Shown here: positions 672-23,282 of the stretch, one piece after another | Numbering within the stretch: the stretch's first letter is position 1 | How the letters are laid out: every line of letters begins with the position of its first letter | Notes under the pieces: generated by a model | Told to the model about the DNA's origin: nothing | The model's input: the letters and a program-made list of their open reading frames with translations, nothing else | Database searches by the model: none | Source: Eggerthella sp. YY7918 | GTDB lineage: Bacteria > Actinomycetota > Coriobacteriia > Coriobacteriales > Eggerthellaceae | DNA length: 64,000 nt | Assembly: GCF_000270285.1 (NCBI RefSeq) | Contig: NC_015738.1 | Span: 124,001-188,000, forward strand | Direction: 5' to 3' | Program-made: the position numbers and the translations under genes

Positions 672-1727
672 ATGAACATAGAACAGCTGATAGCCTTGGC
701 TCATGAGGTGAACGCCTCCGACGTCCACCTGGTGTGCGGTCTGCCAGTGAAGTTTCGCGTGGGGGGTCGCCTGCTGGATGCGGGCGTGGCGGGCGATGCG
801 CCGCTCTCCCATGAGGACTGCGAGCGATTCGCCCACGAGCTGGCCGGAAACGACTTCGTGCACATTGAGCGTACAGGCGAGCTTGACCGCGCGGAAACCA
901 TCGCTGGCGTGCGTGTGCGTATTAACCTGTTTCGCCAGCAGGGGCATGTGAGTGCCGCGCTGCGCTTGCTGTCCGATGTCATTCCGCCGCTGGAGTCGCT
1001 CGGCCTGCCTCCGGCGGTCATGGATTTCCCGAAAATTCAACGTGGCATCGTGGTGGTCACGGGCGAAACGGGCAGCGGCAAGTCGACCACGCTGGCGGCG
1101 CTTATCGATGCCATCAATCACACGCGCGCTGAAAACATCATCACGATGGAAGACCCTATCGAATACATTTATACGCCCGACCGCTCCATCATCTCGCAAC
1201 GCGAGATTGGCCAGGACACGGCAAGCTACCACAACGCGTTGCGTGCGGTGCTGCGCGAAGATCCCGACATCATTCTCATTGGCGAGATGCGCGATCTCGA
1301 CACCATCCAAACCGCGCTGACCGCTGCCGAGACGGGCCACTTTGTGCTGGCCACGCTGCATACGAAGTCGGCTGCCGATTCCATCGACCGTATGGTGGAC
1401 GTGTTTCCGGAAGGGTTGCAGCGCCAGGTGCGCATGCAGCTGTCAACGTGCTTGGTGGCGGTGCTTTCCCAGCAGCTTCTTCCGCGTCGCGACGGCAGCG
1501 GTCGCGCGCTTGCCTGCGAGCTCATGATGGTGACGCCTGCCATCCGCAACCTCATTCGTGAAGGCAAGACGCCGCAAATCGCCAGCAGCTTGGCAACCTC
1601 GGCTGCCGCGGGAAGCATCACTATGGACAACGCCCTTATTGCGCTTGCGCGCTCGCGCACTATCGATGCGCAAACGGCAATAGACGCTGCTCACGATGTT
1701 GACTACGTACGCAGGAGCGTGCGCTGA
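672..1727 (+). CDS. pilT: Type IV pilus retraction ATPase PilT
   Basis: 351-residue hexameric ATPase that depolymerises the pilus and so drives twitching. The ATG at 672 sits behind a GGGGGAAGG-type ribosome site; a longer in-frame extension starting at 426 would overlap pilB and is unlikely. Walker A GETGSGKST is at residues 131-139, followed by the Asp box MEDPIEY, Walker B DPDIILIGEMRD and the His box GHFVLATLHT. It lacks the PilB zinc cysteines, and its length is normal for PilT. The stop codon overlaps the pilC start by one base, which indicates translational coupling. Confidence 0.95.
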   Translation: MNIEQLIALAHEVNASDVHLVCGLPVKFRVGGRLLDAGVAGDAPLSHEDCERFAHELAGNDFVHIERTGELDRAETIAGVRVRINLFRQQGHVSAALRLLSDVIPPLESLGLPPAVMDFPKIQRGIVVVTGETGSGKSTTLAALIDAINHTRAENIITMEDPIEYIYTPDRSIISQREIGQDTASYHNALRAVLREDPDIILIGEMRDLDTIQTALTAAETGHFVLATLHTKSAADSIDRMVDVFPEGLQRQVRMQLSTCLVAVLSQQLLPRRDGSGRALACELMMVTPAIRNLIREGKTPQIASSLATSAAAGSITMDNALIALARSRTIDAQTAIDAAHDVDYVRRSVR

Positions 1728-2935
1728 TGCCGGCTTACACCTACGTTGGCATTTCCGATTCCGGCGAGCGCGTCGACGGCGTGGTCGAGGCGTTCGACGA
1801 GATTGAGGCAATGGAGAAGGCGCGCGAACTGTGCCGTGTGGTGCAAAGCGTCAAGCAGGTGCGCGAAAGTAAGAACCTGCTGTCCATGGACATCACGAAG
1901 CCCAAAGCCAAGCCCAAAAATCTTGCCATCATGTGCGCGCAGTTCTCCACCATTTTGAAGGCAGGGCTCTCCATCGCGCGTGCGGTGTCGCTTGTGGCTG
2001 AACAGACCACCGATAAATATCTCAAGCGTGTGCTTGTTGACGTGGCGACCGATGTGGCAAGTGGACATGGGTTGGCCGACAGTTTTCAAAGCAAGGGCGA
2101 GAACCTGCCACGCGTGTTCATCGAAACGGTGCGCGCAGGCGAGGAAAGCGGTCACTTGCCGGAAAGCTTCGTGCGGCTGCACTCCTATTACGACAAGCGT
2201 TCCAAGGTGGCCGCGAAGGTTGCCAGCGCACTGACGTATCCCATTTTCGTGCTGGTCATTGCCGTGGTCGTGGTCGCAGTCATGATGACGATGGTGATTC
2301 CAGCCATTGCCGGCATGGTGTCGTCGTTGGGTACCGAGATGCCGGGCATTACGCAGTTTCTGATCGACGCGTCCAGTTGGGTTTCGGCGAATATCCTGAT
2401 TATTCTGGTGGTAGTTGTGCTCGTGTTCGTGGGCGTGCGGCTGTTTATGCGGACCGAGAACGGCAAAACCATGCTGGCGAAAGCCAAGCTGAAGGCTCCG
2501 GTGCTGGGTGTGGTGGGCACGTATTCGGGAGCGTCGCAGTTCGCGAACACCATGTCGATGCTTATTGCCGCCGGTCTTCCCATCACGCGCGCTGTGTCAA
2601 TAACGTCGCGTGTCATGGGCAACTATGTGCTCTCGCGCGAAGTGGGGCGTATGGAAGCAGGGCTTGAAGAGGGCCGCACGCTCGGCGAATGTTTGGAGGA
2701 GTGCCGCTATTTGCCGCGCACGCTCATCGAGATGACTACGGTGGGCGAGCAAACCGGCGAGCTAGAAGAGACGCTAGAAACCATGGGCGAGTTCTACGAC
2801 AGCGAAACGCAGCGCGTGACCGATCGCGCGCTTTCGCTCATGGAGCCGACACTGCTCGTGCTGATGGCACTGTTTGCTGGATTTATTGTGATCGCGCTGT
2901 ATCTGCCCCTATTTACGATGTACGCGTCGATGTAA
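1727..2935 (+). CDS. pilC: Type IV pilus inner-membrane platform protein PilC/GspF
   Basis: 402-residue polytopic membrane protein that connects the ATPases to the growing pilus. Two T2SSF domains are visible (about residues 65-190 and 265-390). Each has the cytoplasmic helical bundle with a conserved GE-x-SG/TG motif (RAGEESGHLPE, VGEQTGELEE) followed by hydrophobic segments: residues 170-200, a second near 215-240, and a C-terminal helix ending the protein. Length is standard. Start and stop are coupled to pilT upstream, and the prepilin gene follows after a 117-base gap containing a hairpin. Confidence 0.93.
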   Translation: MPAYTYVGISDSGERVDGVVEAFDEIEAMEKARELCRVVQSVKQVRESKNLLSMDITKPKAKPKNLAIMCAQFSTILKAGLSIARAVSLVAEQTTDKYLKRVLVDVATDVASGHGLADSFQSKGENLPRVFIETVRAGEESGHLPESFVRLHSYYDKRSKVAAKVASALTYPIFVLVIAVVVVAVMMTMVIPAIAGMVSSLGTEMPGITQFLIDASSWVSANILIILVVVVLVFVGVRLFMRTENGKTMLAKAKLKAPVLGVVGTYSGASQFANTMSMLIAAGLPITRAVSITSRVMGNYVLSREVGRMEAGLEEGRTLGECLEECRYLPRTLIEMTTVGEQTGELEETLETMGEFYDSETQRVTDRALSLMEPTLLVLMALFAGFIVIALYLPLFTMYASM

Positions 2936-13631: not shown

Positions 13632-14016
13632 AAAGAACACCTGCTCTCTCTCGAAGGGCGTGTTGGTCGCAGTCTAGCAAACGAACTATCGGCTCGCCCG
13701 ACCTGTTTCGAGATTTTTACAATGCCGCGTGTGCCCGAGCGTTTCGCACCTCGTCCAAAAATCGCATGCGGTATCTGCGCTTCGCATTCGGCCCCCGCGT
13801 TCGCTCATTTGTGCGTCCCGTATCCGTGAATACGCTCTGCGCTCGTGTCCCGTTCCGCGTATTGCGCCTGCGTCCGCACTCGCTCACTTGTGCTCCTTCG
13901 CCTCCCCTTGCGGATATCGTGCGCTTGCCAAGCGCGCATTTGCTATCATGGTTCGAAAGAGCGTTTGAGTGTTTCACGTGAAACATTTGTTTGCGAAAGA
14001 CGGGCGAGCGAACATT
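13632..14016. promoter_or_regulatory. Gene-free gap between divergent genes with an extended -10
   Basis: This 385-base divergent region contains no supportable gene. TGCTATCAT (TATCAT at 13944-13949) is a possible extended -10 for iorA. A parS palindrome follows at 13970. The left part is pyrimidine-rich and contains short imperfect direct repeats (CGCTCATTTGTG and CGCTCACTTGTG). Confidence 0.4.
13970..13985. promoter_or_regulatory. parS site 1 (upstream of iorA)
   Basis: Perfect 16-bp palindrome TGTTTCACGTGAAACA, the known bacterial ParB-binding consensus, between the putative promoter and the iorA start. Confidence 0.9.
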
Positions 14017-16098
14017 ATGACGAAGAAACTCCTGATGGGAAATGAGGCGTTCGCACATGCGGCGCTTGAAGCGGGCGTGCGCGTGGTGGCGGGCTATCCG
14101 GGAACGCCGTCGTCGGAGCTCATTGAGACGGTGGCGAAGTTGCATGCGGCCGGTGCCGCGCGCGGCGTACATGTGGAGTGGTCCACGAACGAGAAGGCCG
14201 CTTTGGAACTGTTGGCAGGCGCGTCTTACACGGGTGCGCGCTGTTTATTCACGTGCAAGCAGGTGGGGCTCAATGTGGCGAGCGACGCGCTTATGAGCTT
14301 GAACTACGTGGGCGTGAAGGGCGGCATGGTGTTGTTCGTGGCCGACGACCCGGGCCCCATCTCCTCGCAAACCGAACAGGATACGCGCCGCTTCGCGTCT
14401 TTTGCGAAGTTGCCGGTGTTTGATCCGTCCACGCCGGACGAGGGCTTTGCTATGATGCAGGCTGCGTTCGACCTGTCCGAGCGCTATCATACGCCCGTCA
14501 TTGTGCGACCCACTACGCGCATTAACCACGCATCGACGTTTTTCGATATTGCAGACACGACCGACGCACGGCCGGTGCCTGAGGAAGGTTTTGAGCGCGA
14601 TCCAAAGTGGGTTATCTTCCCGCGCCGCGCCTACCAAGCGCACGGCGAGATCAACGAGCGCTTGCGCGACATCGCTTGCGACTTCGCCCATGAACCTGCC
14701 TTGGCTGCCTTCAATCCCATGATTGAAGGCGGAGAAGGCCTCGCACCGCAAGCGAATGTTTCACGTGAAACAGGGGCCGTGCACGGGGGCGCCTCGGATC
14801 GTCACCCAAATGTTTCACGTGAAACATTTGATGATGAAAAGAATCAACAAATAAGTGAATTGCAGGATGTTTCAGGGGCCACAGCAGTCGCTCGCTCTCC
14901 TCGGCTCGGCATTGTGGCGGGCGGCGTTTCGGCGGCGTATGTGCGCGAAGCGTTGCGCATGGTCGAGGCGCACGCGGCTGAGGAAGACCTCGTGGTACCA
15001 GCGTATCGATTCTGGAGGGTGGGAACGCCCTATCCCTTCCCGGAGGAAACGGCGGCGCAATTTGCGGAAGGTCTCGAGCAGATTCTTGTGTTGGAAGAAC
15101 TCGATCATGTGCTTGAAGACGAGCTGCTCGCTTTTGCGGGCCGCACCCATGCGACGTTCGACGTGCGCGGCAAGTTGACCGGCGATGCGCGCGACCGCGG
15201 TGAAAACGACGTCGACGATATAGCTTCTAGAATTGCGCTGTTTTTCGGCTTCAATTCTCAAACAGATGTTTCACGTGAAACATCTGCGTTCGCTCCTGTT
15301 GAAAATCTTCCCGTTCGTCCGCCGGTTCTTTGTGCCGGATGTCCGCACCGCGGCAGCTTCTATGCGGTCAAATGTGCGCTTGGGAAAACGCCGGCCGTGT
15401 TGTGCGGTGATATCGGATGCTACACGCTGGGTAACGCCATGCCGCTTGATGCCGTGGATACGTGCCTGTGCATGGGCGCGGGCATCACGATGGCGCAGGG
15501 CTTCGCCGTAGCCGAGTCGCACAAGAAGGCGCTCGCGTTTGTGGGCGATTCGACGTTCTTTGCGAGCGGTCTTACCGGCATCGTGAATGCTGTGTACAAC
15601 GGCCACGATATTACCGTGTGTGTGCTCGACAATGCCACCACCGCCATGACTGGTTCGCAGCCACACCCCGGCACTGGTGTGACGCTTATGGGTCCGCGTC
15701 GTACGCCGGTGTCCATCGAGCGTGTTTTGGAAGCGGTAGGCTTCGAGTGCATTGTGCACGCCAATCCTCTTGATCTGGAAGCGTCGACGTCCGCTGCTCG
15801 TGAGGCTATTGAGTTCGCTGGCCCGTCGGCTATCTTATTTGAATCGCCCTGCATTCAGCTGGTGAAACCCGGCGCACCCGCCACCGTAAACGCGGATACC
15901 TGCACCGGCTGCAAGAAGTGCATCACCGAAATCGGCTGTCCTGCCATCGGTTTTGACGCGGATGCTCGTGGCCCCAAGAGCAAAGAGCGCGGCCAGGCCT
16001 ACGTGGACTCCAGTCTCTGCAACGGCTGTGGCCTCTGCACCCAAGTGTGTCCCTTCGATGCACTCGGTGTTCCGTCGGAAGGAGGTTCTCATGCGTAA
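14017..16098 (+). CDS. iorA: Indolepyruvate:ferredoxin oxidoreductase, alpha subunit
   Basis: 693-residue thiamine-diphosphate enzyme that oxidatively decarboxylates arylpyruvates to arylacetyl-CoA and reduces ferredoxin. The N-terminal pyruvate-oxidoreductase-like domain has the GYPGTPSSE motif; the TPP-binding half contains GDIGCYTLGNAMP and GDSTFFASGL. The C-terminus holds two ferredoxin motifs (CTGCKKC and CNGCGLC) for 4Fe-4S clusters. ATG 14017 is preferred to the GTG at 13969, which would translate the parS site. Unusual: the linker around residues 245-290 carries two parS sites and another insert near 415-420 carries a third, each read as VSRET. iorB overlaps the 3' end. Confidence 0.93.
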   Translation: MTKKLLMGNEAFAHAALEAGVRVVAGYPGTPSSELIETVAKLHAAGAARGVHVEWSTNEKAALELLAGASYTGARCLFTCKQVGLNVASDALMSLNYVGVKGGMVLFVADDPGPISSQTEQDTRRFASFAKLPVFDPSTPDEGFAMMQAAFDLSERYHTPVIVRPTTRINHASTFFDIADTTDARPVPEEGFERDPKWVIFPRRAYQAHGEINERLRDIACDFAHEPALAAFNPMIEGGEGLAPQANVSRETGAVHGGASDRHPNVSRETFDDEKNQQISELQDVSGATAVARSPRLGIVAGGVSAAYVREALRMVEAHAAEEDLVVPAYRFWRVGTPYPFPEETAAQFAEGLEQILVLEELDHVLEDELLAFAGRTHATFDVRGKLTGDARDRGENDVDDIASRIALFFGFNSQTDVSRETSAFAPVENLPVRPPVLCAGCPHRGSFYAVKCALGKTPAVLCGDIGCYTLGNAMPLDAVDTCLCMGAGITMAQGFAVAESHKKALAFVGDSTFFASGLTGIVNAVYNGHDITVCVLDNATTAMTGSQPHPGTGVTLMGPRRTPVSIERVLEAVGFECIVHANPLDLEASTSAAREAIEFAGPSAILFESPCIQLVKPGAPATVNADTCTGCKKCITEIGCPAIGFDADARGPKSKERGQAYVDSSLCNGCGLCTQVCPFDALGVPSEGGSHA
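14757..14772. promoter_or_regulatory. parS site 2 (inside iorA)
   Basis: Perfect TGTTTCACGTGAAACA, read in frame as VSRET in a polar linker of IorA. Confidence 0.9.
14811..14826. promoter_or_regulatory. parS site 3 (inside iorA)
   Basis: Perfect 16-bp parS palindrome 54 bases after site 2, again translated as VSRET. Confidence 0.9.
15267..15282. promoter_or_regulatory. parS site 4 (inside iorA)
   Basis: Perfect 16-bp parS palindrome, translated as VSRET just before the second TPP-binding half of IorA (LCAGCPHRG). Confidence 0.9.
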
Positions 16099-16690
16099 TG
16101 TGCTTTTAGCGGGCGTGGGCGGACAGGGCACCGTGCTTGCGGCGAAGGTGTTGGCCCAGGCTGCGCAGGAAAAGGGCTGGCAGGTGCGTACGGCTGAGAC
16201 CATCGGCATGGCGCAGCGTGGCGGTAACGTGGTGTCGCACGTGCGCATGGGCGATGGCGGGGAAGAGGTGTTCGCGCCGCTTGTCGCCCAAGGCACAGCC
16301 GACCTTATCGTGGCGTTTGAGCCCGCCGAGGCCGCACGCGTGCTGTCGTATCTCGCCCCCCGGGGGACCCTCGTCACGGCGACGACGGCAATTCAACCGG
16401 TTACCGCGGCATTGTCGAAGGAACCATATCGTGCTGCCGATATCGTAGCGCACATAGAAACCCAGCTCAGCGGTACCGGGGCAACGTTCGTTCCTATTGA
16501 CGATGCGGCGCTCACGGGGCGCGTCGGCAGTCGCAAAGCGCTCAATACGCTGCTGCTTGCCAGGGCCTTGTCCACGGGCTGTATTCCTCTTGACCTGGAC
16601 GATCTCCGCAGCGCCATTCAAGCCTGTGTTAAGCCTCGCTTCGTCGATCTCAACCTTGCCGCCATCAATGCGGCGTGTTTCGTCGGCTGA
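16091..16690 (+). CDS. iorB: Indolepyruvate:ferredoxin oxidoreductase, beta subunit
   Basis: 199-residue gamma-type (POR gamma domain) subunit of the arylpyruvate oxidoreductase. The N-terminal VLLAGVGGQGTVLAAKVLA and the segment ETIGMAQRGGNVVSHVRMG are characteristic. ATG 16091 has GGAGG five bases upstream and overlaps the iorA stop by 8 bases, so production is coupled. The next gene starts 12 bases after its stop with its own GGAGGA site, which makes a three-gene operon. Confidence 0.94.
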   Translation: MRNVLLAGVGGQGTVLAAKVLAQAAQEKGWQVRTAETIGMAQRGGNVVSHVRMGDGGEEVFAPLVAQGTADLIVAFEPAEAARVLSYLAPRGTLVTATTAIQPVTAALSKEPYRAADIVAHIETQLSGTGATFVPIDDAALTGRVGSRKALNTLLLARALSTGCIPLDLDDLRSAIQACVKPRFVDLNLAAINAACFVG

Positions 16691-16702
16691 TTCGGAGGAA
16701 GC

Positions 16703-17011
16703 GTGCGAATAGCGTACGACACCAAGTTGCGGGAATACATGCTGCGCAAGGGTGCGCCGCATATCGTTGTGGATGCGTGTTACGCGAAAACTTGAGCGGG
16801 CTCCATCGCCGAGCTGGATGTTCGGCTAGTTGATGAAGCGCACGCTGACGAGCTGCGCCCACAGGCTCGTGCTGTCTATGCGGGGGATGTGGGCGATGTG
16901 CTCATTATGGCTCGCGAGCTGGACATAGACGAGCAGGTCACCTTCCGACTCAAACGCTTTCTCGGCCTCAAAGAGGTGGCCGTCGAAGGCATTCGAACCT
17001 ATCGCTTTTAA
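16703..17011 (+). CDS. Candidate selenoprotein (HesB-like / CC-Se motif type) with in-frame TGA
   Basis: Read through one TGA (codon 31, 16793-16795), this frame encodes 102 residues and ends at TAA 17009. GTG 16703 follows GGAGGA at proper spacing, 12 bases after iorB. The residues around the TGA are DACYAKT-U-AGSIAEL, with Cys at codon 26. The frame stays coherent after the TGA: hydrophobic/charged periodicity, then VGDVLIMARELD and KRFLGLKEVAVEGI, a pattern I associate with small HesB-like selenoproteins. A hairpin with a 9-base loop begins 12 bases after the TGA, where a bacterial SECIS should be. Alternatives are a nonsense-mutated pseudogene or a 30-residue peptide. Family assignment is from memory and should be held loosely. 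Confidence 0.62.
16808..16826 (+). promoter_or_regulatory. Candidate bacterial SECIS element
   Basis: The stem GCCGA / TCGGC encloses the loop GCTGGATGT. The loop starts 17 bases after the TGA and its first base is G, within the range reported for bacterial SECIS hairpins. CATC (16804-16807) and GATG (16832-16835) could add four outer pairs with a bulge on the 3' side. Confidence 0.45.
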
Positions 17012-17326
17012 TCCCCATATGCGTCGAAGCTTCATCGGAGCGCGCAGCAAAAGGACGCTATTCGCAAAAATAGATTGTCCTTCAATCTTGATTTGAATGT
17101 AACGACGGGAGTACTATGTCTTCAAGGCAAACCTGCCGGAAGGCAGCGGCGCAAAGCTAAAGGGGCCCATTCTAAGAAGAAGGCCAGCCAGTTGCACGTG
17201 AATTTTCGCCTGTGATTCGCCTATCGGCCCTCTTTTCTTTTTGGGTTCAACACGTCTTAGATTTCGGGTGAGACGCGCTACATGCGCGCTCGTTCTTGTA
17301 TCTAAGGACGCGGAAAGGAATTGCAT
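17012..17326. other. Gene-free gap before the surface protein
   Basis: 315 bases without a supportable gene. A short hairpin CTGCC/GGCAG lies near 17132 with no T-run. No confident promoter hexamers were found; the transcription start of the surface protein gene is presumably in the right half. Confidence 0.4.
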
Positions 17327-20300
17327 ATGAAACGCAGCATCTACGCCAGTAAGATTTTGGCCGTCTTTCTGTCACTCGTTCTTATTGCTTCGTGCAATGT
17401 GCCCCTTGCCTGGGGCGAGGCCATTGGTGGCGATTCCGTTTCTGCAGCCGGGGCTAACCAAGAAACTGCCTCGAATGAGGAAATCCCGTCCGGAACTGAT
17501 GAATCAGATTCCAACACTGAAACAACGGGCACTGATCCTTCTTCCGAAGAAGGGACGACCGACAACAAGAGTGAAGATACCCCTACGGTCGAGACCACCA
17601 ACGAGACGGTGGCCTCCTTGCTCTCTAGCGCTCGCAGCCTAGCCTCCGAGCCGAAGGCAACGACGCCGGTGGCGGAAGTGGTCAATGCGGATGGCACCGT
17701 GGCGGCTCAGTATACCTTGCTGGCCAACGCTCTTCGTGATGGAGCGGGTAAGACGGTTCGGCTCTTGCAAGACGTTTCTAGCAGTAGTACCCAATACGAC
17801 ATCGATGAATCAATGACGCTTGACTTAAATAGTCATAGCATTTTTAGCAAAAAGAATTACACGGTAAAGGCAAATGCCGCTAGTAACAAGGAAATTGAAG
17901 TCATCATTAAGAACGGTACGATACGCAACGCCTTTACTGGAACCGATTATGCATCAGCGGTCTTTGCTCGACAAGGTGGCAACATAACGCTTGAAGATGT
18001 GACGCTTGAGGCAAATTCAAGTTACGGCTATGGCGTGAAGATTGGTCAGGACGGAGATAAGCAGCAACCGACAGTCACCGTTCAAGGTTCAAGTACACGT
18101 ATCTACGGAACAATCGCAGGCGCAGCGATTATGGGCAACAGCGAAACCGGCGATAAGCCGACGCTCGTTCTGAACGAGGGCACCATCCAAGGCGAGTGGT
18201 ATGGCATTGCTGGTAACGGTAGCATTGACAATACTTCTATCACCATCAAAGGGGGTGTTGTAAAGGCGCTCGAGCCCACTGACGCAAAAGGAATTTACCA
18301 TCCCCAAGACGGCGATCTAACCATTGACGGTGGTAAGGTGCAGGGTCCAGGTGGGGTCCAGTACTGCGGTGCGGGCACATTGAAAATCGCCGGTGGCGAA
18401 CTGCGAGCCACGGAAGCATTGGTAGATCCCGCCATCCAGAAAGGTGACGGTTCTGTCGAGGATGGCGCGGCGTTGTCGCTTGTTTCGCGTGGTGGCGGCT
18501 ACGGTGCGGCGGGAAGCGCGAACGTTTCCATTACGGGAGGGTCGCTCATAAGCGATCATAACGTGGCGCTCCTCGAATATGGGGTCGAGGGAATTGAGAG
18601 CCTCGTCGGTACTCTTGCCATCGGGGGGGGGTCAGACCTTCTCATAGCGGGTGGTGAAGGCAAGGATGCCGTACAGTTTAACAAGCTCACCGGTCGTACC
18701 GCCCAGGCGATAGCGGGTGGTCTCTTCTCAAGTAAAGTTCCCGTTGAGTACTGTGCGCCGGGCTATGTGCCAACCGATGTGCTGGATAACGGTCGGTACA
18801 GCGTGCAGAAGCCTGCGATTCAGGTGTGGAACGACTTCGGTAGCCCGATCAGCAGCGCCCATGGTTCGCTGAGCGACGCTTTTGCTGCCGCAGCCGCCCA
18901 GCAGCCAAAGCATATCGTGGCCATTGTGGGCGACTATACACTTGAGAGCAACACAAGCATTCCCGAGAACACCTATCTTGATGTGCGAGACGGCGCAACG
19001 CTCACGGTTCCGAGTGGTGTGACCTTGACGGTCCCCGATAATTGCATGCGTCTCGGCATCTGGAGCGGTGGCACGCTGAATATCGAAGACGGCGGCAAAG
19101 TGCTTATTAAAAAGGGCTCCGCATCGACAGGCAATATGCATGGTTTTGTAATGCTCCAAGAGGGGAGTACGCTGAATGGCGAACTGAGCGTGCCGGAGGG
19201 TTGTTTCCTCGATAAGAACGGAACGAACTATGTAGCAAGCGAGCTAAGTAATGCGGTAGCGAAATTGGTAAAGCCCGATGGCTCTGTGACGTATGCGACG
19301 CAAAAGAATTTTGCCAACCTTGACTATGCCGACGGTGAAACGCTTGTCTTGTTGAAAAATGTTACTTCGCCGCTCTTCTCTTCAGTCCCCATAACGTTGG
19401 ATTTGAACGGATTTACACTGACTTGCAGCGATGAGTGGACTGGTTCCGTCATAAACGCGTCGGACAATCTTGTTATAAAGAATGGCACTGTTAAAGCGGG
19501 GGCAGTCTGCGAAAACGTTGTGCAAATTGTTGGCGGCTCGCTTACGATTGAATCGGATGCCACGATCGACGGCGGGCAAACTCTCGGAATATTCGTCGAT
19601 TACGAGTCCGGCCTGGTTGTAAACGGAACGGTGAAGAGTACCAACGACTGCGCCATCTCCGGCAATGGTAACGGCGGGTCTGACAATACGACCATCACCA
19701 TCAACGAAGGTGCAACGGTAACGTCCGAGAACGAACCAGCCATCTTTCATCCGCAAATCGGCACCATTGATGTTCTTGGCGGAACCATCAGGGGCATCAC
19801 AGGCATCGAAATGCGTTCGGGCGATCTGAATGTATCGGGCGGCATTATCGAGGCCACGGCCGATTCATTCTTGTCCTCGGAGAACGGGAATGGTACAACA
19901 TCAACCGGTGTCGGCATCGCGGTCGCTCAGCACACGACGGGACATCCCATCAACGTGAACATCACCGGTGGCAATATCTCCGGCATCTACGCCCTGCATG
20001 AAAGCAACCCTCAGAATAACGATGATACCGTCATCGCCCAGGTGAAACTCAGCATTTCCGGCGGAACGTTCAAGGCCATCAAGGGCGGTACGGATGCTGT
20101 CTCCAGCAAGGATGTTTCTAATTTCATCACGGGCGGCACGTTCAACACGGTCGTGCCAACCACTTATTACGACACTGACCGGTACGCGCAAAATGCGCAG
20201 GGTGCCGCGGCCGATCCGGGGAAGATTGTCCCCCGCGAGTTCTCCCTGACCTATGATCTCAAACAGGGCGCGCTCCCGTCTGGCAAAAGCAATCCTGCAA

Positions 20301-21682
20301 CCTACACGTGCCTTGACGAGGTGACGCTCGTCAATCCCGAGCGCGCCGGCTATACCTTCACTGGCTGGACAGGCGGAGGGCTTTCCCAGGCAACCGTGAA
20401 CGTGACCATCCCCAAGGATTCGAAGGGCAATCGCGCTTACGTTGCCACCTGGACGGCGAATCCTGCGAGCATCGTTTTCGAAACGAACGGCGGCGCGAAG
20501 ATTGATGCTCTTGAGGGTGTGACCGATGACACGGTAACCGGCACGCTGTTGACTCCTGTTCGTGCCGGTTTCAAGTTCGCCGGCTGGTTCGACAATGCGG
20601 CGCTGACTGGCAATGCGGTAACGTCGCTGCCCGCAACGTTTCCTGCAGATACCACCACCTTCTATGCGAAGTGGACCAAAGAGGTTGTTGAAGGTAACGC
20701 AACCATCGTCGTAGAGCTGCCCGGCGTTGTGGGCGACGACGTGTCTGCTACGGTCGTCGAGGATGCGGCTGACAGAGCGCTTGACAATGCCAAAAGCGCA
20801 CTTGACACCTTGAAGGCGGGCGGGATCCCTGACGGCGTGAGCGCGCAAGACGCCGCGAAACTGAAGGCGGCACTGGCTGATACGAGCAAAAATGTGGTGG
20901 TGAAGGTGACGCTCGGCATCGAGCGTATTGATGGGTCTGTAAGCGGGGACGAGAAAGCCGCCATCGAAAACAAGAAAGAAGGCCACGAAGAGGTGGCGGC
21001 ATTCTTCGATCTGTCTGTTTTGATGACCGTTGAGGTGATTGATCCCGCGACTGGTCATCCAGTTGGTGATGCTACAACGGTGTCGCTTTCGTCCGTTGAT
21101 AAGCCGCTGCTTTTCGAGCTGCGCGTCGATCCCGACTCCATCGCGGGGAAGAGTGTGCGCATTGCACACGTACATGACGGTGCAACCGAGATTATCTACC
21201 CCGAATCCGTTGATCGTGCAGCGGGTACGGTGCGCTTCTTCGGGTACAAGTTCTCGACGTATGCACTTCTCACATCATCTCAAGTGACAGTGCATTTCGA
21301 TCCTGCTGGTGGCGCGTTTGCGAACGCTTCTGATGCAACGCAGATAGTTGCGTTCGGTGCGCAGGCGGTGCCACCGACCGCACCGACGCGTGCGGGATAC
21401 CAATTTACCGGCTGGTTTACGGATACGAGTTACGCGCAGCCTTTCGACTTCTCGAAGGGTGTCGAAAACACGACGACGGTCTATGCGGGCTGGGTGCAGA
21501 AGAGTGGTGGATCGGGTGCTCTTGTAGATAACCCTGACAAGAAGAAACCTCCCTTTGGCACGCTTGTGTCGACCGGCGACAAGGGCGACGTACTGATTGA
21601 GACGACCATCGCCTTTGCGCTTGTGGCTGGTCTGATTGCATGTGCTGTGGCGGTGCATCGTCGCAGGAGGGGTGAGCGGTAG
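17327..21682 (+). CDS. Large cell-surface protein with beta-helix-like region and InlB-type repeats
   Basis: 1451 residues. ATG 17327 has AAAGGA seven bases upstream. A signal peptide (1-32) leads to a Ser/Thr/Glu-rich region (35-100). A long body (about 110-950) is rich in short repeating phrases such as VNGTV, LTIDGGKVQG and NVNITGGNISG, typical of right-handed beta-helix adhesins. Three Listeria-Bacteroides (InlB B) repeats follow, recognised by GYTFTGWT, GFKFAGWF and GYQFTGWF. The C-terminus has LVSTGD, a membrane helix and a basic RRRRGER tail. This is a sorting-signal layout but without a canonical LPxTG, so sortase anchoring is uncertain. A G9 tract at 18623-18631 could allow on/off switching. 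Likely role: adhesion or matrix contact. Confidence 0.88.
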   Translation: MKRSIYASKILAVFLSLVLIASCNVPLAWGEAIGGDSVSAAGANQETASNEEIPSGTDESDSNTETTGTDPSSEEGTTDNKSEDTPTVETTNETVASLLSSARSLASEPKATTPVAEVVNADGTVAAQYTLLANALRDGAGKTVRLLQDVSSSSTQYDIDESMTLDLNSHSIFSKKNYTVKANAASNKEIEVIIKNGTIRNAFTGTDYASAVFARQGGNITLEDVTLEANSSYGYGVKIGQDGDKQQPTVTVQGSSTRIYGTIAGAAIMGNSETGDKPTLVLNEGTIQGEWYGIAGNGSIDNTSITIKGGVVKALEPTDAKGIYHPQDGDLTIDGGKVQGPGGVQYCGAGTLKIAGGELRATEALVDPAIQKGDGSVEDGAALSLVSRGGGYGAAGSANVSITGGSLISDHNVALLEYGVEGIESLVGTLAIGGGSDLLIAGGEGKDAVQFNKLTGRTAQAIAGGLFSSKVPVEYCAPGYVPTDVLDNGRYSVQKPAIQVWNDFGSPISSAHGSLSDAFAAAAAQQPKHIVAIVGDYTLESNTSIPENTYLDVRDGATLTVPSGVTLTVPDNCMRLGIWSGGTLNIEDGGKVLIKKGSASTGNMHGFVMLQEGSTLNGELSVPEGCFLDKNGTNYVASELSNAVAKLVKPDGSVTYATQKNFANLDYADGETLVLLKNVTSPLFSSVPITLDLNGFTLTCSDEWTGSVINASDNLVIKNGTVKAGAVCENVVQIVGGSLTIESDATIDGGQTLGIFVDYESGLVVNGTVKSTNDCAISGNGNGGSDNTTITINEGATVTSENEPAIFHPQIGTIDVLGGTIRGITGIEMRSGDLNVSGGIIEATADSFLSSENGNGTTSTGVGIAVAQHTTGHPINVNITGGNISGIYALHESNPQNNDDTVIAQVKLSISGGTFKAIKGGTDAVSSKDVSNFITGGTFNTVVPTTYYDTDRYAQNAQGAAADPGKIVPREFSLTYDLKQGALPSGKSNPATYTCLDEVTLVNPERAGYTFTGWTGGGLSQATVNVTIPKDSKGNRAYVATWTANPASIVFETNGGAKIDALEGVTDDTVTGTLLTPVRAGFKFAGWFDNAALTGNAVTSLPATFPADTTTFYAKWTKEVVEGNATIVVELPGVVGDDVSATVVEDAADRALDNAKSALDTLKAGGIPDGVSAQDAAKLKAALADTSKNVVVKVTLGIERIDGSVSGDEKAAIENKKEGHEEVAAFFDLSVLMTVEVIDPATGHPVGDATTVSLSSVDKPLLFELRVDPDSIAGKSVRIAHVHDGATEIIYPESVDRAAGTVRFFGYKFSTYALLTSSQVTVHFDPAGGAFANASDATQIVAFGAQAVPPTAPTRAGYQFTGWFTDTSYAQPFDFSKGVENTTTVYAGWVQKSGGSGALVDNPDKKKPPFGTLVSTGDKGDVLIETTIAFALVAGLIACAVAVHRRRRGER
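18623..18631 (+). repeat. G9 homopolymer inside the surface-protein gene
   Basis: Nine consecutive G read as GGG GGG GGG (residues about 433-435, AIGGGSD). A one-base slip would truncate the product to about 30 percent of its length, with loss of the repeats and the membrane anchor. Confidence 0.9.
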
Positions 21683-22046: not shown

Positions 22047-23282
22047 ATGGACATGACTCCCGATCAACTTGATAGTATCAAACAACAATTCACCACGCTC
22101 AAAGAGCGCTCGTCCTTCTACGCCGCCAAGTTCGAAGGCATCGACCTCACCGATGTCCAAACGCAGGAGGACTTCGAGAAGCTTCCGTTCTCCGAGAAAG
22201 ACGACCTGCGTAACGCCTACCCCCTGGGCCTGCAAGCCGTACCCGACGAGGAAATCGTGCGCATCCACTCGTCCAGCGGCACCACGGGCACGCCGGTCGT
22301 CATTCCCTACACGCAGCAGGACGTGATCGACTGGGCCATCCAGTTCGCACGCTGCTACGAAACGGCCGGCATCACGAACACTGACCGCATCCAGATTACC
22401 CCTGGTTACGGCCTATGGACCGCCGGTATCGGCTTTCAGCTGGGTGCCGAGCGGCTGGGCGCTATGGCCATTCCTATGGGCCCCGGCAACACCGAAAAGC
22501 AGCTGAAGATGATGCAGGACCTCAAATCCACTGTGCTCTGCGCTACGAGTTCCTATGCGCTTTTGCTGGCTGAAGAAATTGCCGAGCGTGGCATTCGCGA
22601 CCAAATCCACCTGCGCAAGGGCGTCATTGGCTCCGAGCGTTGGGGCGATAAAATGCGTCAGCGCATCGCCGGCGAGCTGGGCGTGGAGATCTTCGACATC
22701 TACGGCCTCACCGAGGTGTACGGACCCGGCATCGGCATCTCGTGCAGCGAGCACCACGGCATGCACGTGTGGGCCGATTACGTGTACGTGGAAGTGGTCG
22801 ATCCGAAAACGGGCGCCTCGCTGCCCGACGGCGAAGTGGGCGAGCTGGTGCTGACCACGCTGCGCAAGCAGGGCGCGCCACTCATCCGTTACCGCACGCA
22901 CGACCTCACGCGCATCATCCCCGGCGACTGCGCCTGCGGCCTCAAGCACCCGCGCATCGACACCCTCACCGGCCGCACCGACGACATGTTCAAGGTGAAG
23001 GGCTGCAACATCTTCCCTGCTCAGGTGGAGGAAGTCATCGCAGCCACCGGTGGCACATCAAGCGAGTATCAGGTGATGATCGAAAACATCAGCGGCAAAG
23101 ACGTGCTCACTGTGCTTTTTGAAACCCCGCTCGAAGGCGAGGCGAAAGAACGCGCGCAGGAGGAACTAGCCCTCATTTTCAAGGCGAAATGCGGTTGCAC
23201 CCCCGACGCCATCGGCGTCCCCATGGGTGAACTTCCGCGTTCGGAAAAGAAGACGAAGCGCATCTTCGACAGCCGCTACTAG
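22047..23282 (+). CDS. paaK: Phenylacetate-CoA ligase (AMP-forming)
   Basis: 411-residue member of the ANL superfamily. It activates phenylacetate, or a related arylacetate, to the CoA thioester through an acyl-adenylate. The P-loop-like SSSGTTGTPVV is at about residues 74-84; DIYGLTEVYGPG is the second adenylation motif; LIRYRTHDLTRI contains the adenine/ribose contact; the C-terminal lid contains KVKGCNIFPAQVEE. Length is typical of anaerobic PaaK. ATG 22047 has AAAGAGG upstream. With IorAB it could interconvert arylpyruvate, arylacetyl-CoA and arylacetate, in either direction, for aromatic amino-acid fermentation; that link is inference from proximity. Confidence 0.92.
   Translation: MDMTPDQLDSIKQQFTTLKERSSFYAAKFEGIDLTDVQTQEDFEKLPFSEKDDLRNAYPLGLQAVPDEEIVRIHSSSGTTGTPVVIPYTQQDVIDWAIQFARCYETAGITNTDRIQITPGYGLWTAGIGFQLGAERLGAMAIPMGPGNTEKQLKMMQDLKSTVLCATSSYALLLAEEIAERGIRDQIHLRKGVIGSERWGDKMRQRIAGELGVEIFDIYGLTEVYGPGIGISCSEHHGMHVWADYVYVEVVDPKTGASLPDGEVGELVLTTLRKQGAPLIRYRTHDLTRIIPGDCACGLKHPRIDTLTGRTDDMFKVKGCNIFPAQVEEVIAATGGTSSEYQVMIENISGKDVLTVLFETPLEGEAKERAQEELALIFKAKCGCTPDAIGVPMGELPRSEKKTKRIFDSRY

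Follow-up and report, generated by a model that had tools for sequence, protein, structure and literature searches.

The DNA analysed here, hereafter the window, is a stretch of 64,000 nucleotides (nt) of Eggerthella sp. YY7918, corresponding to positions 124001-188000 of its single-contig genome of 3.12 Mb. Downstream of two genes whose best family matches, by sequence, are IorA and IorB, the window carries a small gene that almost certainly encodes a selenoprotein, with selenocysteine (Sec) at residue 31 (Table 1). The original prediction for this locus described a GTG codon with a strong ribosome-binding site, 12 bases past iorB, opening a frame of 102 codons interrupted only by a TGA at codon 31. 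All of this was confirmed: 12 nt separate the iorB stop (16688-16690) from the GTG at 16703, GGAGG lies at 16694-16698, the TAA of the frame occupies 17009-17011, and the TGA of codon 31 is the sole internal stop. The spacing suggests that iorB and the selenoprotein gene are co-transcribed. The true start of iorA is probably slightly downstream of the start of its open reading frame (ORF).

Table 1. Features of the ior locus of Eggerthella sp. YY7918, in window coordinates
Feature	Position	Strand	Details and basis
Probable selenoprotein gene	16703..17011	+	GTG start, 102 codons + TAA, U at residue 31; frame, 73%-identical relative without TGA, codon-position bias
In-frame TGA, codon 31, probably read as selenocysteine	16793..16795	+	TGC in nearest relative
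GGAGG ribosome-binding site	16694..16698	+	Sequence
Bacterial SECIS-like hairpin (predicted), apical loop UGGAU 16815-16819	16800..16839	+	Loop 19 nt past TGA; PMC13188914 criteria
iorB, indolepyruvate ferredoxin oxidoreductase beta subunit	16088..16690	+	Best NCBIfam matches E 7e-45, below cut-offs; PF01558 above cut-off
iorA ORF, indolepyruvate ferredoxin oxidoreductase alpha subunit, C-terminal 4Fe-4S domains	13969..16098	+	TIGR03336 637.6 bits (cut-off 650.9); Fer4 domains
paaK-type aryl-CoA ligase (presumed name)	22047..23282	+	Close to ior in many relatives

By gene content, the genome is able to decode UGA as Sec. Searches of the whole genome revealed SelB (378 bits) and an adjoining tRNA-Sec (71 bits), both above cut-off, and the same stretch encodes SelA (541 bits), FdhD, YedF, SelD and a cysteine desulfurase related to SclA that scores below the SclA cut-off. 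The components that the original prediction had proposed looking for (SelA, SelB, SelD and tRNA-Sec) are all present. The SelD gene has its own in-frame TGA, within the motif UAAK, and a formate-dehydrogenase-like (FdhA-like) gene has one in UHAP (TIGR01553, 160 bits, below cut-off), so that UGA evidently serves as Sec in at least two further genes.

The nearest relative of the window protein, from genome G024, is 73% identical over 102 residues; its gene has no stop within the frame and carries TGC at codon 31. Past the TGA, substitutions between the two genes number 9, 10 and 43 at codon positions 1, 2 and 3, respectively (chi-square calculated by hand, p ~1e-8), with a nonsynonymous divergence (dN) of 0.15 and a synonymous divergence (dS) of 2.4, which is near saturation. 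Before the TGA, the corresponding counts are 7, 5 and 11, with dN 0.22 and dS 0.79. The pattern of substitution clearly points to protein selection on the stretch past the TGA, and decay of this half was tested for and rejected.

When 396 genomes of the class were searched with a profile of 19 rows, 32 matches in 23 genomes were obtained; six of them are interrupted by TGA and none by TAA or TAG. For alignment, 31 of these matches (one paralogue of G321, without a locus, was left out) were combined with L004 and L090, giving 33 rows. Two of the 31 enter through L086 and L089, taken as contigs of G337 and G395. Omitted were L016 (a partial copy at the edge of its contig), L091 and L092 (both nearly the same as L090), and L085, L087, L088, L093 and L094, judged to be duplicates of genome loci already included. 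The column of codon 31 holds Cys in 20 rows, TGA in six and another residue in seven (A, S, S, E, E, E and H), and all six in-frame TGAs of the alignment sit in it. The identity of codon 31 in homologues had been proposed as a check on the original prediction, and 26 of the 33 rows have Cys or TGA there. The C-x4-U pair described at the outset fared less well: Cys26, the sole Cys of the window protein, is real and forms a CxxxxU motif with Sec31, but this pairing is common to the nearest relative only (C-x4-C/U in 2/33 rows) and is not conserved.

The rows with TGA come from the window genome, G042, G060, G069, G077 and G405. SelB was found in the first five and not in G405, whose assembly is 79% complete and whose copy is short; across all family-bearing genomes SelB was found in 15 of 25, and these numbers are too few to decide whether the two go together. 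Three genomes of one genus differ at this site: CKSCGG in G300 and G379, CKSUGG in G405. Mapped on the family tree, the Sec label requires five changes, at least three of them forced by well-supported branches, and its clustering does not exceed that of shuffled labels. The family was detected in 16 of 100 genomes (window genome counted). A scan of genome contigs with the single protein gave 148 pattern matches and no relative, while a narrower alignment gave ten loci, three of which are near-identical Neisseriaceae loci from metagenome-assembled genomes (MAGs). A DNA similarity search in plasmids returned no match to the gene. The Neisseriaceae relatives (L090, L091 and L092), near-identical to each other, derive from ruminant MAGs and may reflect either cross-phylum transfer or misbinned contigs.

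The predicted hairpin downstream of the TGA has a 7-bp upper stem, the loop UGGAU and an energy of -18.5 kcal/mol (z-score -1.6 against shuffles). A hairpin resembling the selenocysteine insertion sequence (SECIS) had been part of the original prediction and is present, although its loop is 19 nt past the TGA and not 17. It lies within the published limits for bacterial SECIS elements (16-37 nt past the TGA, with G in the first two loop positions, a stem of 4-16 bp and a minimum free energy <= -7.5; PMC13188914). As a control we used the 1905 other TGAs on both strands of the window: 22% fit the general model, 10.0% also have GG or GU in the loop (the strict rule applied to the family rows; a slightly different rule gave 9.4%), 2.4% combine GG/GU with a spacing of 16-20, and 1.3% have in addition a stem of at least 7 bp. 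In the family alignment, a strict hairpin follows the TGA in all six TGA rows, at a spacing of 16-19 nt, and by the same rule occurs in three of the 27 rows without TGA, two of these at a spacing of 32-33 (Fisher p = 7.6e-5, with rows treated as independent, though relatives are not). The nearest Cys relative has no strict hairpin; the FdhA-like gene of the same genome passes the hairpin test, with a spacing of 18. Since all six TGA rows have a strict hairpin and share one column, conservation of the hairpin exceeds chance.

Structures were predicted for the window protein and one relative, and the leading matches were all of the HesB/IscA/SufA fold; on the basis of these models, the protein very probably adopts a HesB fold. 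In the predicted model, strands beta2 and beta3 flank Sec31, which occupies the site of the first, invariant ligand Cys of A-type carriers. These carriers hold a metal or cluster by three Cys, one central and two in a C-terminal CxC; in the window protein the CxC ligands are missing and Sec31 takes the central ligand position. No thioredoxin-like fold appeared among the matches listed by VIA-align, which is no proof of its absence. Sequence searches of solved structures with two family profiles gave nothing for A1 and chance matches only for A5. No Pfam or NCBIfam model matched the window protein at E<=1, PF01521 included. Likewise, TIGR01911 (cut-off 66.35 bits) has no match in the protein (E<=1) or in the genome (E<=0.001), and NF041239 (cut-off 40 bits) has none in the protein or the genome; applied to seven relatives, NF041239 scored three at 13.5-17.8 bits and had no match in four. 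Membership in the HesB-like selenoproteins was rejected by sequence, as neither TIGR01911 nor PF01521 gives a match; of the HesB-like link made in the original prediction, the predicted fold is what stands.

Profile comparisons connect the family to this fold by way of an intermediate. With hhalign, the family profile matched an NF041239-type profile (12 rows, seven of them below the NF041239 cut-off) at 85% and E 6.1e-6 in one comparison, with the Cys/Sec positions aligned, and the NF041239-type profile matched PF01521 proteins at 91% and E 1e-6, also in one comparison. Directly compared with PF01521, the family reached only 29% and E 6e-4 (one comparison), codon 31 falling on the invariant Cys of GGC[SA]G; an unrelated control profile gave 0.4%. 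The family is probably a distant relative of the HesB-fold proteins, with Cys or Sec as first ligand in 26 of 33 rows and no C-terminal CxC. PF01521 itself was detected in three of 197 genomes of the class at E<=0.1, one above cut-off and none in the window genome, and in 35 of 60 sampled genomes of the phylum. One locus of the class (L128 in G117, 1501-1755, minus strand) has a PF01521 match above cut-off and an in-frame TGA in VKUAG, at the apparent first ligand Cys; judged from its sequence, it is a probable HesB-like selenoprotein gene in another taxonomic family of the class. In another actinobacterial genome, an NF041239-like gene (L084 in G679, 1501-1767, plus strand; 27.3 bits, cut-off 40) combines an in-frame TGA with a strict hairpin.

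Among known systems, the CC/Se motif family NF041239, first predicted in Moorella thermoacetica, is alike in length, in N-terminal pattern and in having Cys/Sec followed by Gly or beside a Cys, and the NF041239-like gene of L084, below the cut-off, has TGA at the aligned position; in contrast, the window protein does not match the model and its motif is CxxxxU, where the family entry has CxxU. The A-type carriers IscA, SufA and HesB (PF01521) share the predicted fold, with Cys/Sec31 aligned to their invariant first Cys, but differ in possessing the C-terminal CxC and in being near-absent from the class. The HesB-like selenoprotein TIGR01911, which we take to have a HesB-type fold with Sec near the first ligand position, is distinguished by its UxGP motif, the window protein having UAGS. 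DsrR of Allochromatium vinosum (2k4z) has the HesB fold and is not known to have any ligand Cys, whereas the window protein keeps Sec at the first ligand position. A survey of 119 prokaryotic selenoprotein families, in a review of 2026, lists the HesB-like (UxGP) and CC/Se-motif (CxxU, NF041239) families, and the portions of its table available to us contain no other HesB-type entry and none with CxxxxU (PMC13188914). The function of the HesB-like selenoprotein of Methanococcus maripaludis is likewise called unclear (PMC11097638). Searches of the open-access literature returned no title dealing with the gene described here among the matches listed.

Besides the window, ior lies near a family member in one of 19 fetched regions (G024) and in none of the 18 others, several of which are short contigs. 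The G024 gene is likewise situated between ior and paaK, with a Fic-type gene between it and iorB; a putative surface-protein gene intervenes, in the window, between the selenoprotein gene and the ORF that we take to be paaK. The same-genus genome G001 has no relative that we could find, and its ior-paaK gap contains a GGDEF-type gene (named by eye). Of 30 fetched ior loci, 19 gave a tblastn match to paaK. Among 60 genomes (window genome counted), 56 have an IorB-like match, which reaches E<1e-40 in 39; the weaker matches are perhaps other oxidoreductase subunits. With ior in one of 19 regions and an IorB-like match in nearly every genome examined (56/60), the position of the gene suggests co-expression in the window and not a shared function across the family. 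A redox or metal-delivery role tied to IorAB, as originally put forward, is accordingly not supported as a general function. The neighbours of family members that were examined vary and include AzlCD, P-type ATPases, CstA, MurB and a flavodiiron-type protein, among others. An association with metal P-type ATPases was considered and set aside as too thin: they adjoin members in two of the 19 regions (L063 and L064), and the L064 member has Ser at the column. A Fic-family gene is divergent to the member in L054 (7674-8399, minus strand) and in L066 (6965-7744, minus strand), the two Fic proteins being 28% identical.

Two further elements were observed around the locus. A c-di-GMP-I riboswitch (17116-17199, plus strand; 52.9 bits) precedes the 1453-residue putative surface protein (ORF 17321-21682); Rfam detected none in the ior loci L054, L096 and L100, of which L096 and L100 reach ~1.5 kb past iorB. 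The palindrome TGTTTCACGTGAAACA, which we presume to be the ParB parS consensus, has nine perfect copies in the window (13970, 14757, 14811, 15267, 42219, 42935, 44540, 45434 and 57568), with 0.04 expected. Four of them are inside the iorA ORF, and some occur in ior loci of relatives. The whole chromosome has 110 copies at <=1 mismatch; among the matches listed all are perfect and dispersed along the length covered, and a reversed control gave no match. That many dispersed parS-like sites would be unusual.

Sec decoding, family conservation and the predicted fold are supported by computation. In the mechanism that we propose, SelB, Sec-tRNA-Sec and the SECIS-like hairpin would carry translation through the UGA, producing a selenoprotein of 102 residues. 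Several points qualify the evidence for Sec decoding. TGA was written as C for the alignment, which favours its placement on the Cys column; the hairpin was dropped as stand-alone proof of Sec, given how many other TGAs fit the general model; the SelD TGA of the same genome fails the hairpin test; and the G405 copy may be a nonsense mutant or the product of an incomplete assembly. A true stop, leaving a decayed gene or a peptide of 30 residues with the remainder non-coding or restarted, is conceivable in that TGA is one step from TGC, and G405, with its short copy and no SelB found, could be an example. We nonetheless consider it very improbable for the window gene, given the protein selection past the TGA, the Sec machinery, the six family TGAs in one column with a strict hairpin, and the lack of TAA or TAG in the 32 class matches. 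The original prediction had named missing Sec machinery, and homologues ending or decaying neutrally past codon 31, as outcomes against it; both were looked for, and its central claim, a selenoprotein gene, was not refuted and is strongly supported by the machinery, the column, the selection and the conserved hairpin.

The role of the protein is less settled. The selenolate of Sec31 would most likely serve as a soft ligand that binds a metal, an Fe-S cluster or a sulfur or selenium atom, perhaps bridging the two subunits of a dimer; alternatively, one selenolate could carry sulfur or selenium. We regard a Sec-decoded HesB-fold protein with Sec31 as ligand as the best explanation overall, at slightly better than even confidence, while the choice of a ligand over a purely redox role is, taken by itself, about evenly balanced. 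A selenol/thiol redox enzyme of the same fold, with Sec31 catalytic and a resolving Cys nearby, is a close rival, though we give it clearly less than an even chance. Most uncharacterised prokaryotic selenoproteins are considered likely by the authors of the survey to serve redox functions (PMC13188914). A second Cys is often near the column (adjacent in CC/CU rows, three before in CKTC/CKSC/CKSU, five before in the window), the L070 members adjoin a gene with flavodiiron-, flavodoxin- and rubredoxin-type domains, and a cytochrome c552 gene lies ~360 nt upstream of the L069 member. However, the second Cys has no conserved position, and the protein is predicted to be folded like ligand-binding carriers. 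An IorAB-specific factor for maturation or metal delivery, co-expressed with IorAB, would fit the short gap to iorB, the 4Fe-4S domains of IorA and the arrangement in G024. This seems improbable, because IorB-like proteins are so much more widespread than the family (56/60 versus 16/100 genomes), ior is so rarely near other members (several regions being short contigs), and G001 has a GGDEF-type gene in the gap and no relative found. Extending the preferred ligand reading, the family could be a selenium-based stand-in for A-type carriers in Coriobacteriia, in which one Sec (or Cys), not three Cys, would hold the metal, cluster or chalcogen, and which at ior-paaK may serve IorAB and other Fe-S oxidoreductases; this is speculative and, in our estimate, unlikely.

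The finding adds a probable selenoprotein to an Eggerthellaceae bacterium. Annotation pipelines would probably fail to detect the gene, as the ordinary code stops it after 30 residues and none of the library models tested recognises it. Sec and Cys have been exchanged repeatedly within the family, which ties the CC/Se-motif selenoproteins to the HesB/IscA fold. For a group described mainly by its motif, this offers a testable idea, namely that Sec may replace the first ligand of the A-type carriers.
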